From IMG/VR virus record IMGVR_UViG_3300029268_000003, positions 1 to 44,284 of that record: a stretch of 44,284 nucleotides of DNA; one strand, given 5' to 3'. This DNA is from a virus. Every line of letters begins with the position of its first letter. Positions within the stretch are counted from its first letter, which is position 1. Both the position numbers and the translations under genes were made by a program. Positions 2,467 through 5,481 of the stretch are shown piece after piece. The notes under the pieces were generated by a model. That model saw nothing but the letters and a program-made list of their open reading frames with translations. It made no database searches and was not told the origin of the DNA.

Positions 2467-2470
2467 TATT

Positions 2471-2755
2471 ATGAAAACAGAACTTGAAATTGCAAACGAA
2501 AGGATATTAGAATTGGAGGAGCAAGTAAAAAAACTTACTTCCAATACTGTGTTAGCGGTTCGTTGCCCCCTTATAGAAATTGATGCAGAGACATTACAAA
2601 TGTGTATTGATATGTATAATGGAGGCGAAAAACTGACTGCTATTAAATGGCTAATTGAGGAGGCAAAGCAAGATACATACACATTTGGAATTAAGTGGGC
2701 AAAGGAATATTTTGAAAGGATAGGGCTTGAAGCGGTGGAAGGCAATGACCGCTAA
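2471..2755 (+). CDS. Cassette 1: small coiled-coil protein, 94 aa
   Basis: Unknown function. The N-terminal 25 residues are a heptad-like coiled coil (LEIANERILELEEQVKKL). A compact helical segment follows (LQMCIDMYNGGEKLTAIKWL, then IEEAKQDTYTFGIKWAKEYF), loosely like the 'G-K-x-x-A-I-K-x-L-x-E' helix-turn-helix of ribosomal L7/L12 C-domains. That resemblance is weak. The stop TAA (2753-2755) lies inside the R'' box (GCTAAC) of the attC-like site, a common cassette economy. No promoter is evident; it is probably read from the recombination operon upstream. Confidence 0.65.
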   Translation: MKTELEIANERILELEEQVKKLTSNTVLAVRCPLIEIDAETLQMCIDMYNGGEKLTAIKWLIEEAKQDTYTFGIKWAKEYFERIGLEAVEGNDR

Positions 2756-2805
2756 CGGCTGAGTGTAAAAAATCGTTTTAATGTTTTTTACACTTTGTTA
2801 GCAGT
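2750..2805 (+). other. attC-like site 1
   Basis: R'' CGCTAAC ends at 2756. Stem GTGTAAAAAA (2763-2772) pairs with TTTTTTACAC (2784-2793) around the loop TCGTTTTAATG. R' is GTTAGC from 2797. The unpaired bases are asymmetric (GGCTGA on the left, TTT on the right), like the central spacer and extrahelical bases of attC. Predicted cleavage is between G2797 and T2798. Confidence 0.7.
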
Positions 2806-2863
2806 ATGTAATTTTATCCCTTTTGAGCGTGGGATGCTCACAACATAATTAATTAAATAAAAA

Positions 2864-3151
2864 ATGAAAAAGAAAGAAGTACAAATGGAAGAGTGCGATT
2901 GCATTTCAAAAGTAGCTGAAAACATTAAAGCAAAAATTACAGCCGACCAAACTGAGAAGCAAAAAGGATACAAGATGCTGAACGGAAATTGGGAACATCA
3001 TAGTTGGTATCCGAAAGTTCGGCTGTATTCAAATTACATAATTGAAAGCACTTTTGAAAAGAAGGATGGAAGTACAAGCAAACCAAGAAAAGACCATGTA
3101 AGTATTTTTTATTCTTATTGCCCATTTTGCGGTAAACCATTTCCGAAGTAA
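2864..3151 (+). CDS. Cassette 2: zinc-ribbon-like protein, 95 aa
   Basis: Function unknown. The CDC pair at residues 11-13 and the C-terminal CPFCGKPF (C86, C89) form a likely four-cysteine zinc site with the chain ends brought together, a layout common in small mobile-element and phage proteins. The middle part is basic and aromatic (NGNWEHHSWYPKVRLYSNYI). The gene fills its cassette, with about 66 bp of leader after the cassette start and about 26 bp before the next R'' box. The leader contains TTTTGAGCGTGGG, nearly repeated as TTTGAGCGAGGG in cassette 3. Confidence 0.7.
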   Translation: MKKKEVQMEECDCISKVAENIKAKITADQTEKQKGYKMLNGNWEHHSWYPKVRLYSNYIIESTFEKKDGSTSKPRKDHVSIFYSYCPFCGKPFPK

Positions 3152-3176
3152 TGGTGCGTTGGCGGGATAAAATTAT

Positions 3177-3237
3177 TACTGCTAACGGCACTCGGCTAAA
3201 GTGTCGTTTTAATGCACTTTTAGCCGATGTTATGTTG
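3177..3237 (+). other. attC-like site 2
   Basis: R'' TACTGCTAAC (3177-3186) is the exact 10-bp reverse complement of the first bases of its own cassette (GTTAGCAGTA, 2797-2806). Stem TCGGCTAAAGTG (3192-3203) pairs with CACTTTTAGCCGA (3215-3227) with a single extra T on one arm, resembling an attC extrahelical base. The loop is again TCGTTTTAATG. R' GTTATG starts at 3229. Confidence 0.75.
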
Positions 3238-3320
3238 GTGCGTAGGGCATTTGAGCGAGGGGCAGTTAAATATTTTAAATTAAATTTTTGCGAGGGAATT
3301 AATAACTAAAAACTAAAAAG

Positions 3321-3884
3321 ATGAAACTATTTTTTGACACAGAATTTACAGGGTTGCACAAAAACACAACCTTAGTTAGCATTGGAATAATTGCTGAAAA
3401 CGGCAAAACATTTTATGCGGAACTTACCGACTATGACCAAAAGCAAATTAATGAATGGTTACAGAAAAATGTAATTGAGAACCTAACCATTGACAAGGAT
3501 AGCTTAGGTAAGTTTGGGGATGATGCGAACTGGCTTGTAAGAGGCGATACAGCAAGCATAAAATATTATTTAGAGGAATGGCTAAAGCAATTTGAAAAGG
3601 TTGTGTTTTGGAGCGATTGCCTTAGTTACGATTGGGTTTTGTTTAATCACATTTTTGGACACGCATTTAGCATACCTGAAAATGTTTACTACATACCATT
3701 TGATATATGCACACTATTTGAACACAAAGGAATTGATGCAGATATAAGTAGAGAAAGGTATGCTGAAATTACCAACGACAAAGGACAAAACCAAACATCG
3801 GAATATATGATGAAGCACAATGCTTTGTATGATGCTAAAGTGATTAAACTTTGTTACGAAAAACTGTGCGGTGGGAAAATTTAA
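3321..3884 (+). CDS. Cassette 3: DEDDh 3'-5' exonuclease (Rv2179c-like)
   Basis: A 187-aa DEDDh-superfamily exonuclease, closest in pattern to the small Rv2179c-like 3'-5' exoribonucleases. Visible motifs are FFDTEFTG (D6, E8: ExoI), the central SDCLSYDW (ExoII region) and [12 protein letters not shown] (H166-x4-D171: ExoIII), which supply the two-metal site. [12 protein letters not shown] fits the conserved segment between ExoII and ExoIII. The length is normal and all catalytic residues are present. Such a protein could degrade RNA or DNA; the substrate is not evident. A cassette-borne exonuclease could serve either the phage or cassette-host competition. Confidence 0.85.
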
Positions 3885-3900
3885 TTTAAAATATTTAATT

Positions 3901-3965: not shown

Positions 3966-4043
3966 GTATGGGCGTCAATTACCTACAAACGCTAATACGA
4001 GGTACACAGTAATAATTTTATTTTTTTAGGGAGGGAAAATATT

Positions 4044-4973
4044 TTGAAAATAACGACAGAAGAATTGCACGAACGGCAGAAATGGACACTTGAACAAAAG
4101 ATTGACCATAGCTTAGGAACATTAGAACAGTTCTACAATTATACAGATGGAAAATGTGTAGTAATGTTTTCAGGCGGAAAAGACAGTACGGTTTTATTAC
4201 ATTTAGCAAGAAGAATGTACCCGAACATTAAAGCAGTTTTTGTAAACACAACGAATGAGTTTTCGGAAATATTAAAGTTTGTGAGGCAAACAGATAATGT
4301 TGATGAAATAAGACCCAAAATGACATTTTCTCAAACAGTTGAAAAATATGGATTTCCTTTAATATCAAAAAAAGTTGCAAAGGCAATACAATACATTAAA
4401 TACCCATCACCAAAAAATGATAAAGTTCGCAACTTAGTTTTGACTGGATATAATTCTAAAGGGCAAAAATGCGAAAGTTATAAACTTGCTAAAAAATGGT
4501 ATTTTTTGAAAGATGAAGTTTTTGAAATTACTCATAAATGTTGCGAAATATTGAAACATAAACCATTTGCCGAATACCAAAAACAAAATAATGTTTATCC
4601 CATTACTGGAATTATGGCAGACAATAGCCAACAAAGGAAAGGAAACTATTTGCAATATGGGTGTAATATTTTGAATAGTAAAAAGGCTGTAAGCAGACCT
4701 TTGAGCATTTGGAATGATGATGATGTTTGGAATTACATTAAGAGATATAATGTTCCTTATTGCGATGTTTACGACAAAGGGGAAAATAATACTGGATGTG
4801 CTTATTGTGGATTTGGCTGCCATTTGGAAAAAGAAAGCAGATTTGAACGGTTAAAAGAACGAGAACCGAAACGATACGGGCAAATGATAAAATTAACTAA
4901 TAATGGAATTACTTACGAAACTGCAATCCAAACGGTTTTGAAAAAACCTAATGAGCGAGGGCAAAAAAAATAA
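4044..4973 (+). CDS. Cassette 4: PAPS-reductase-like PP-loop ATPase
   Basis: A 309-aa protein of the phosphoadenosine-phosphosulfate reductase/PP-loop superfamily, which adenylates or reduces sulfur substrates. The PP-loop VVMFSGGKDSTVLL (SGGKDS at 43-48) is intact. The middle contains YPITGIMADNSQQRKGN and RPLSIWNDDDVWNYIKRY, the family's second nucleotide-site region. A cysteine cluster TGCAYCGFGC (C252, C255, C259) suggests a metal or Fe-S site. Phage and defence-associated homologues (DndC-like) share this plan; whether this one acts in DNA modification, sulfur metabolism or counter-defence is not decided by the sequence. The likely start is TTG at 4044, preceded by AGGGAGGG; no in-frame ATG lies nearby. 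Confidence 0.85.
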   Translation: MKITTEELHERQKWTLEQKIDHSLGTLEQFYNYTDGKCVVMFSGGKDSTVLLHLARRMYPNIKAVFVNTTNEFSEILKFVRQTDNVDEIRPKMTFSQTVEKYGFPLISKKVAKAIQYIKYPSPKNDKVRNLVLTGYNSKGQKCESYKLAKKWYFLKDEVFEITHKCCEILKHKPFAEYQKQNNVYPITGIMADNSQQRKGNYLQYGCNILNSKKAVSRPLSIWNDDDVWNYIKRYNVPYCDVYDKGENNTGCAYCGFGCHLEKESRFERLKEREPKRYGQMIKLTNNGITYETAIQTVLKKPNERGQKK

Positions 4974-4977
4974 AATT

Positions 4978-5061
4978 ATGGGATTAACCGATAAACTTTC
5001 AAACGAGGTACGAACTAAGCCCATATTGTTGCTAACGGTCGCAAATATATTGTCGTTTTAA
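4978..5061 (+). CDS. Cassette 4: 27-codon ORF running into attC-like site 4
   Basis: ATG at 4978 opens 5 nt after the PP-loop gene stop and encodes MGLTDKLSNEVRTKPILLLT plus VANILSF. The reading frame passes through the R'' box and one stem arm of the attC-like hairpin and ends at the TAA inside the conserved loop (TCGTTTTAATG). The first 20 residues look like real protein sequence, so this may be a gene end lost to cassette formation or a genuine short peptide. Function unknown. Confidence 0.35.
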   Translation: MGLTDKLSNEVRTKPILLLTVANILSF

Positions 5062-5085
5062 TGCAATATATTTGCTGTTATACAC
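5028..5085 (+). other. attC-like site 4
   Basis: R'' GTTGCTAAC (5028-5036) is the exact reverse complement of its own cassette start GTTAGCAAC (3956-3964). Stem GCAAATATATTG (5041-5052) pairs perfectly with CAATATATTTGC (5064-5075) around loop TCGTTTTAATG. The asymmetric spacers are GGTC and T. R' GTTATAC starts at 5077. Confidence 0.75.
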
Positions 5086-5136
5086 TGGCACGGTTAATTT
5101 AGTAGAAACTTAAATTGAAACAAATAAAATAAAATT

Positions 5137-5427
5137 ATGGTAGCAGAAATTAAAAATCTCAATTCTTATGTTAAAGAGTTTGGGGAAGAATTACACAAAA
5201 CACATTTGGCTTATGCAATGGACAAAACACTTGCAGAACAAAGAGCAAAAGAAATAATTGATGATATTATTGAAAATGGATTGGAGCAAACAACTGTTGT
5301 GCGGTTTCCAAAATTGAGAGAACAAAATAAAGTATCATATCAGCAATTATGTGAAAAATATACTACAATTACATTAGAATATGTTTTTGCTCTTTGTGGT
5401 GGAGAATTGAGATGGATTCTTCAATAA
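5137..5427 (+). CDS. Cassette 5: hypothetical protein, 96 aa
   Basis: Not recognised. A largely helical protein beginning MVAEIKNLNSYVKEFGEEL, with an amphipathic helix (LAEQRAKEIIDDIIENGLEQ) and a hydrophobic C-terminus (TLEYVFALCGGELRWIL). No membrane segment or metal motif is convincing. It is the only gene of the last cassette, starting 59 bp after the cassette boundary. Confidence 0.6.
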   Translation: MVAEIKNLNSYVKEFGEELHKTHLAYAMDKTLAEQRAKEIIDDIIENGLEQTTVVRFPKLREQNKVSYQQLCEKYTTITLEYVFALCGGELRWILQ

Positions 5428-5436
5428 TTTTATTTT

Positions 5437-5481
5437 ACACAAATACTAAATTGGAACACTGATGTAGTGCTTGTGTATAAC
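5437..5481 (+). other. Degenerate or truncated attC-like site 5
   Basis: R''-like GTGTATAAC (5473-5481) is the exact reverse complement of this cassette's own start GTTATACAC (5077-5085), as in cassettes 2-4. However, no attC hairpin or GTTA box follows within 60 bp. Just upstream, ACACAA (5437-5442) and ACTA (5445-5448) pair with TAGT (5465-5468) and TTGTGT (5471-5476), forming a separate small hairpin. The right half of the site seems to have been lost at the junction with the phage backbone. Confidence 0.45.

Follow-up and report, generated by a model that had tools for sequence, protein, structure and literature searches.

The 44,284-base virus contig IMGVR_UViG_3300029268_000003 of IMG/VR (the window, taken at its full length) contains terminase, portal, tail sheath and tape-measure genes and is therefore a phage of the myovirus type. 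Between its RecT/exonuclease genes and a gene at about 5524 lie five small genes, all on the plus strand, and four hairpins (Table 1). This block (2493-5493) is very likely, judging from the sequence comparisons described here, an array of some five gene cassettes of the integron type that has four clear attC-like hairpins and no recombinase of its own, resembling a cluster of attC sites lacking an integrase (CALIN) and belonging to an integron-like system of Bacteroidota and their phages. No tyrosine recombinase was found anywhere in the 44-kb record (no PF00589 match), in agreement with the first-pass annotation of this DNA, and a covariance model of the hairpin family (R1) recognises three strong sites and one weak site, where a CALIN is defined by at least two attC sites and no integrase.

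The first-pass annotation had described five single-gene units in one orientation, each ending in a hairpin. The common orientation and four hairpins are present, and hairpins 1, 2 and 4 do share an apical loop on different stems, but the fifth unit closes with a bare box, TGTATAAC (5474-5481), and has no hairpin. The polarity of the units has also to be reversed: comparison with other phages places the crossover at YTAA|C, so that each hairpin sits at the 5' end of its own gene's unit and the repeating unit is a hairpin followed by a gene, while on related chromosomes the gene direction is the reverse. ORF1 (open reading frame 1, the gene of cassette 1) reads through a probable degenerate attC, a weak site that the covariance model misses, and its stop codon is the TAA of the next CTAAC box; the left end of this cassette, GTTAGCGGT at 2551, lies within the ORF1 coding sequence, and only the degenerate hairpin precedes it. 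The protein of cassette 2 terminates in a CPFC zinc-ribbon-like motif. The right end of the array bears a weak resemblance to the integron attachment site attI and is possibly a decayed one.

Table 1. Features of the cassette array and its surroundings in the window, and zinc-ribbon-like genes near chromosomal recombinases (R1, score in the covariance model; z, single-stranded DNA fold score; aa, amino acids).
Feature	Positions	Strand	Remarks
RecT/exonuclease genes	816-2410		left of cassette block
Probable degenerate attC in ORF1	2493-2554	+	GCAAAC, weak stem ATTGGA/TCCAAT, TGTTA
ORF1 (cassette 1), 94 aa	2471-2755	+	no Pfam match
attC-like hairpin 1	2752-2800	+	CTAAC 2752-2756, loop TCGTTTTAATG 2773-2783, GTTA 2797-2800; R1 73.5 bits, z -4.4
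Cassette 2 gene, 95 aa	2864-3151	+	unit 2756-3185; no Pfam match
attC-like hairpin 2	3182-3232	+	loop TCGTTTTAATG 3204-3214; R1 60.7 bits, z -2.8
Cassette 3 gene, 187 aa	3321-3884	+	unit 3186-3908; Rv2179c-like 3'-5' exoribonuclease (PF16473, Pfam E 4e-12)
attC-like hairpin 3	3905-3959	+	ATAAC 3905-3909, GTTA 3956-3959; apex differs from other three; R1 19.4 bits, E 0.07, z -2.0
Cassette 4 gene, 309 aa	4044-4973	+	unit 3909-5035; PAPS-reductase/PP-loop enzyme (PF01507, Pfam E 6e-26)
attC-like hairpin 4	5032-5080	+	loop TCGTTTTAATG 5053-5063; R1 72.7 bits, z -3.4
Cassette 5 gene, 96 aa	5137-5427	+	unit 5036-5480; no Pfam match
Array right end	5473-5493	+	GTGTATAA|C then ATAGTATAGAAC
Divergent zinc-ribbon-like gene, L143	5427-5795		
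Divergent zinc-ribbon-like gene, L150	1965-2339		
Divergent zinc-ribbon-like gene, L156	3442-3828		
Divergent zinc-ribbon-like gene, L264	6438-6839		
Divergent zinc-ribbon-like gene, L277	15720-16118		

The exact pattern CTAACGG-N-TCGTTTTAATG-N-GTTA occurs in 83 stretches of IMG/VR DNA and in 25 of GTDB species genomes, a minority of which look like chance matches in both collections because their arms do not pair. In an alignment of 53 distinct sites the boxes and the loop are constant and the stems covary, with 97.9% of cells paired, a covariation score of 0.521 (0.132 in shuffles) and 198 two-sided changes. In the consensus, 5 pairs make up the basal stem and about 10 the upper one; there are also unpaired spacers of unequal length (about 5 and 2 nt), a bulged T and a small loop. 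Sites of the attC type, which are recognised by their structure and not by their sequence, are laid out in the same way; the family has the paired outer boxes, the upper stem, the unpaired spacer and the bulged base, with structure kept over sequence. R1, which includes hairpins 1, 2 and 4 of the window by construction and leaves out hairpin 3, gives 164 matches in 81 viral loci (at least two in 41 of them, mostly in tandem on one strand) and none in 26 unrelated phage loci, and no family matching these hairpins is present in Rfam. A further weak match in the window (41188-41255, minus strand; 20.9 bits, E 0.03), an AT-rich hairpin with TAAC and GTTA, may be due to chance or be a lone site.

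Integron cassettes are expected to have complementary ends, as an attC regains its outer stem when its cassette is free and circular. In the window, complementary pairs are found at the ends of cassette 1 (GTTAGCGGT at 2551 with ACCGCTAAC at 2748-2756, a left end looked for in hindsight and of less weight), cassette 2 (GTTAGCAGTA with TACTGCTAAC), cassette 3 (GTTATGTT with AACATAAC), cassette 4 (GTTAGCAAC with GTTGCTAAC) and cassette 5 (GTTATACAC with GTGTATAAC). Across the family, the complementarity of cassette ends between hairpins has a mean run of 2.5, compared with 0.78 after shuffling (maximum 1.17 in 1000 shuffles). Together with the attC-like sites and their covarying stems, these ends bear out the earlier proposal of a CALIN-like array of integron-type cassettes.

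Some of the phage contigs that bear such arrays encode, directly after the array, a tyrosine recombinase of ~265 amino acids, and a search from the protein side identified this enzyme in at least 116 phage contigs, 80 of which were fetched (24 from contigs of about 100 kb or more, seven above 200 kb). The 150 R1 hairpins kept in the alignment, from 315 kb searched, are all upstream of the recombinase gene and on its strand, and R1 finds none in 426 kb of phage DNA downstream of recombinases, which, with the 83 viral stretches that carry the exact pattern, points to more than chance. At least one upstream hairpin is present in 48 of the 65 recombinase loci having at least 1 kb of upstream DNA; loci retrieved with flanks of only 1.5 kb yielded no hairpins, and larger flanks did. 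Freya and Ingeline, temperate Flavobacteria phages whose integrases are about 40% identical, served as a negative control and have no hairpins near the integrase.

The phage recombinases keep all catalytic residues (R-K-HxxR-H-Y) in alignments and match archaeal XerA, the Vibrio integron integrase and XerD best; they score 148-194 against the NF040815 cut-off of 220 and also fall below the other XerA, XerC and XerD NCBIfam cut-offs. An AlphaFold model (pLDDT 87.6) has the usual tyrosine-recombinase fold, with which the integron integrase structure 2a3v aligns over 259 residues (Z 20.7, root-mean-square deviation 3.8). The IntI-specific additional domain, accepted as the defining mark of integron integrases (PMC9668308), is missing: the alignment to VchIntI (2a3v) skips 48 residues (86 residues, against 38 in the phage protein), an absence judged by sequence alignment and not from the fold list of the structure comparison, and the domain is missing in the chromosomal relatives too. 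In a tree with partial reference rows and a midpoint root, the phage recombinases form one clade (100/98) whose sister is Freya plus Ingeline, inside a Bacteroidota group with chromosomal recombinases (97/95) and apart from IntI2, VchIntI, XerD and XerA. The first-pass annotation had implied a source in host integrons whose cassettes were moved by IntI; instead, the recombinases that serve the hairpins are a separate lineage, devoid of the IntI domain, and many phages encode one beside an attI.

This attI is a conserved YTAAC|TATTATATATAMACA located 53-80 nt before the aligned start of nearly every phage recombinase gene, with a variable left side. It is thus found next to the recombinase gene in related phages, and the window has no such site in this form. 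From the four bases that precede its TAAC, a GTTA plus their complement is correctly predicted in the 2.5 kb upstream for 52 of 58 loci (mean 9.3, maximum 18 with shuffled labels), in a test that uses no hairpin model and works also where R1 finds nothing. When attI was searched for blindly as a DNA pattern, a recombinase followed in 15 of the 31 matches, the rest being orphan or unrelated. Sites like attI that have cassette-like left ends and no recombinase after them (in L298, L300, L301, L302, L307, L313 and L320), some with upstream hairpins, are possible orphan attI sites. Furthermore, at 33 distinct junctions (in L168, L171, L182, L188, L189, L208, L212, L233, L237, L077, L081 and others) an open reading frame reads in frame through a short attC-like site, encoding the peptide ..LNISDV.. 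or ..LHISDV.. (GAT GTT A); its start codon precedes the site, so that an inserted cassette would acquire a ready-made N-terminus.

Parts of the window array recur in other phages. Hairpin 2 is identical (52/52) to a hairpin in phage contig L044, and cassette 3 is found at 95% DNA identity in the otherwise unrelated phage contig L243, in a shared stretch (window 3220-3910) that runs from the right box of hairpin 2 to ATAACG. The 3' end of cassette 4 (4905-5036) is present at 87% in phage contig L323, where GTTGCTAAC joins an attI and not a hairpin; after this attI (reverse strand, 130-260) comes a short open reading frame, MENTDYYEI, followed by stops and resembling the N-terminus of the recombinase, and L323 therefore looks like a phage integron with a decayed recombinase. 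The window, for its part, looks like an array without recombinase, a CALIN-like satellite of the phage recombinase/attI system. These cases of window genes that have moved between phages (L243, L323) agree with the suggestion that phages spread cassettes; relatives with the same five genes in the same order were not encountered, and the hairpins are linked to small units of a single or a few genes.

Rearrangement is also seen where the recombinase is present. Contigs L180, L181 and L188 share DNA of 97-100% identity around the recombinase and have their cassettes in different orders, with cassette E occurring twice in L180; the end of this cassette, ...AATATTGTGTATAAC, is followed by attI in L180 and L181 and by a hairpin in L188, and identity ceases at the C. 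Here, as between the window and L243 or L323, the breakpoints of cassette gain or reordering lie at the boxes. In the wider set of loci, 11 of 49 right alignment ends are no more than 10 nt away from the box C of a hairpin in one partner, where random positions would give 1.2%; of the left ends, 16 of 52 (counted by reading the table) fall at the hairpin start in both partners. A stricter test, in which both partners had to end at most 10 nt from a box, failed, as an attI or an undetected site is often present in the partner.

A chromosomal form of the system is present in 43 of 148 Flavobacteriales genomes, in line with the link to Bacteroidota proposed earlier. In the 23 chromosomal regions examined, all 16 hairpins (in 8 regions) are 3' of the recombinase and antiparallel to it. 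The chromosomal recombinases that accompany a divergent zinc-ribbon gene (L142, L143, L156, L276 and L277) share with the phage system their clade, the hairpin family and one-sided cassettes, but they have an N-terminal extension of about 110 amino acids and, unlike in phages, recombinase and cassette genes are co-directional and the hairpins antisense to the genes: gene and hairpin are on the same strand in 72 of 92 cases in phages and on opposite strands in 30 of 43 in chromosomes. No description of this chromosomal recombinase and zinc-ribbon system was found in the papers searched. The divergent zinc-ribbon-like gene (~120-130 amino acids) lies just upstream of several chromosomal recombinases, and the two of its proteins that were tested have no Pfam or NCBIfam match. 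Other peculiarities were seen in individual regions. In Flavivirga jejuensis (L144, 3585-17877), at least six similar open reading frames of about 62-111 amino acids, scattered among the genes near the hairpin array, match only the C-terminal part of the recombinase. In L283, a gene for 282 amino acids occurs twice in one array (9527-10375 and 12610-13458), with the first 40 residues shown identical, which suggests a cassette duplication. A short tyrosine-type recombinase gene (L266, 5043-5708) is upstream of tet(X3) on the Acinetobacter indicus plasmid pXG01-X3 and groups with the Bacteroidota chromosomal recombinases (100/100 with L152), suggesting that tet(X3) formerly stood beside such a recombinase system; R1 finds no hairpin of the family at this locus.

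As seen in related phages, the full system comprises the ~265-amino-acid tyrosine recombinase without IntI domain, an attI before its gene and the cassettes upstream, each cassette consisting of one attC-like hairpin and one to three small genes. From these sequences we infer a mechanism in which one strand of attC would fold into the hairpin, and the recombinase would recognise the constant boxes, the offset unpaired spacers and the bulged T near the loop, and not the sequence of the stem. It would then join the folded site to attI at AA|C, so that new cassettes would enter next to the recombinase gene, and the complementarity of the two cassette ends would give excised circles a longer stem again. 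Since no recombinase is encoded in the window, one would have to be supplied in trans, by a co-infecting phage or by the host, for its cassettes to be mobilised to the presumed benefit of the phage.

As an alternative, classical cassettes could have come from host chromosomal integrons through a bacterial IntI, the phage being a passive carrier. Qi et al. 2023 (PMC9892861) described such cases, with integrons in temperate phages and, in lytic ones such as Polaribacter phage P12002L, CALINs, and found that IntI1 recombined five of six phage attC sites with attI1, among them one of two from P12002L, which worked on the bottom strand only; family hairpins also exist on Flavobacteriales chromosomes, 3' of a related recombinase. 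This origin is nevertheless unlikely, given the opposite orientation of genes relative to hairpins in phages and chromosomes, the separate clade of the phage recombinases, away from IntI, and the end of window cassette 4 that lies at a phage attI in L323. Homologous recombination by the phage RecT and exonuclease between repeated hairpins or leaders, which would make the hairpins conserved linkers or terminators, appears quite improbable. The window phage does encode RecT, single-strand annealing could act on the similar stretches of about 50 nt that the hairpins and some leaders offer, and in some alignments the whole hairpin is common to the partners, but the junctions at attI or in L243 have only short boxes in common, the stems differ among loci and yet always pair, cassette ends are complementary, and the hairpins keep a strict side and strand with respect to one recombinase family. 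That the hairpins, which sit between co-oriented genes, are ordinary intrinsic terminators of a vertically inherited operon is scarcely credible, since no T-run follows them, their stems vary around a constant loop and constant basal boxes, the units are mobile and form attI junctions, and the same hairpins are antisense to the genes in chromosomes. An element of the REP/RAYT, IS200/605 or invertase (shufflon) type, to which palindromic multi-copy units near a tyrosine recombinase might point, is equally hard to believe, since the units are without exception directly repeated on a single strand, the neighbouring recombinase is XerA/IntI-like and has its full set of catalytic residues, and the attI is one-sided.

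Several observations weigh against an integron-type cassette array. The window has no recombinase of its own, its cassette 1 has a degenerate left end, and hairpin 3 scores poorly in R1, whose E-values are rough. R1 detects no hairpin in 17 of the 65 recombinase loci, and the phage recombinase lacks the IntI domain that has been reported as necessary for IntI activity, so that folding-dependent recombination by this enzyme is hypothetical. The boundary of a unit is not always the left box, as the hairpin before cassette 3 is not common to the window and L243, and in L180, L181 and L188 the left arm of the hairpin follows the upstream cassette by one nucleotide. The majority of the loci come from metagenome assemblies, in which repeated hairpins of ~50 nt could be misassembled locally, although dozens of contigs show such attI junctions. 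The interruption of the RecT-exonuclease operon by the block, which the first-pass annotation proposed, is conjectural: queries with RecT, the exonuclease, the zinc-ribbon protein and the 5524 gene brought up no close relative in which the site is empty; L267, the nearest RecT relative, has RecT, a different exonuclease, SSB and zero cassettes, and it was considered too diverged to count as one.

Bacteria are known to capture genes by means of integrons, and the small number of phage cases reported so far look like captured pieces of bacterial integrons. The present system resembles mobile and chromosomal integrons (IntI-attI-attC) in its single attI beside a tyrosine recombinase, small cassettes with complementary ends, structured sites with conserved outer boxes and variable stems, cassette shuffling and duplication, and an AA|C (= G|TT) crossover; it differs from them in a recombinase of another clade without the ~48-amino-acid IntI domain, in genes reversed relative to the usual attC orientation, and in short hairpins with a fixed loop that are carried by phages. 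Xer proteins act on one dif site for chromosome resolution. XerA, XerC and XerD (NF040815, PDB 4a8e and 5hxy) are the closest sequence and fold matches of the phage recombinase, which shares with them the catalytic residues and the lack of an IntI domain but is accompanied by a hairpin gene array and an attI. The phage CALINs of Qi et al. 2023 (PMC9892861) are likewise integrase-less cassette clusters in lytic phages, and P12002L has five strong R1 hairpins of the same family, between or beside methyltransferase genes, one of which is likely the attC2 tested in that work; the family described here differs in being tied to phage-encoded recombinases and attI.

Integron cassettes in phages were therefore already known, and the window alone would be a new member of this class. 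What appears to be new is a phage-encoded integron lineage without IntI domain, with its own attI and inverted gene polarity, together with its Flavobacteriales chromosomal counterpart; the open-access papers searched contained no description of a phage-encoded integron of this type. We consider it reasonably probable that Bacteroidota and their phages, including those of more than 200 kb, hold a second integron lineage whose recombinase never had or has lost the IntI domain, that phages run an on-board exchange of small accessory or anti-defence genes, and that integrase-less phages share the cassette pool. If so, a phage recombinase clade with its own attI would explain the precise gain and reordering of small phage genes, hairpin and attI would serve as a handle to locate accessory and anti-defence genes in phages, and the idea that attC-like hairpins can be used only with the IntI domain would be challenged. 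IntegronFinder 2.0 reported one complete integron in Bacteroidota, in Salinibacter (PMC9024848); standard tools demanding the IntI domain would miss recombinases of this type, which may partly explain why Bacteroidota proper look nearly integron-free.

The 190 cassette open reading frames of the phages have a median length of 89 amino acids. Only nine Pfam families, each once, were detected in the 80 that were scanned, including three DNA methyltransferases, an RNA ligase with OB-fold domain, an ADP-ribosyltransferase of polyvalent proteins and YopX, and the window contributes the exoribonuclease and the PP-loop enzyme. Cassette genes (methyltransferases, nucleases, the ADP-ribosyltransferase, the PP-loop enzyme and many of unknown function) are probably accessory or anti-defence genes, and a role in overcoming host defence through the methyltransferases is plausible.

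A leader like GTGCGGTTAATTAA...AACTTAAATTGAAAC is present at window 5083-5120 and at many unrelated cassette starts (L036, L063, L019 and L029), and could be a shared promoter or translation signal; in a cursory look, the loose motif was present in 39 of 285 matches. At both ends of the contig (window 1-280 and 44158-44284) there is an identical 27-base tandem repeat (TGCTGCAACGAATACAGGATATAGAAG), which suggests, without proving it, that the genome is nearly complete, the two ends probably being one repeat-containing gene split by the assembly of a circular or permuted genome.

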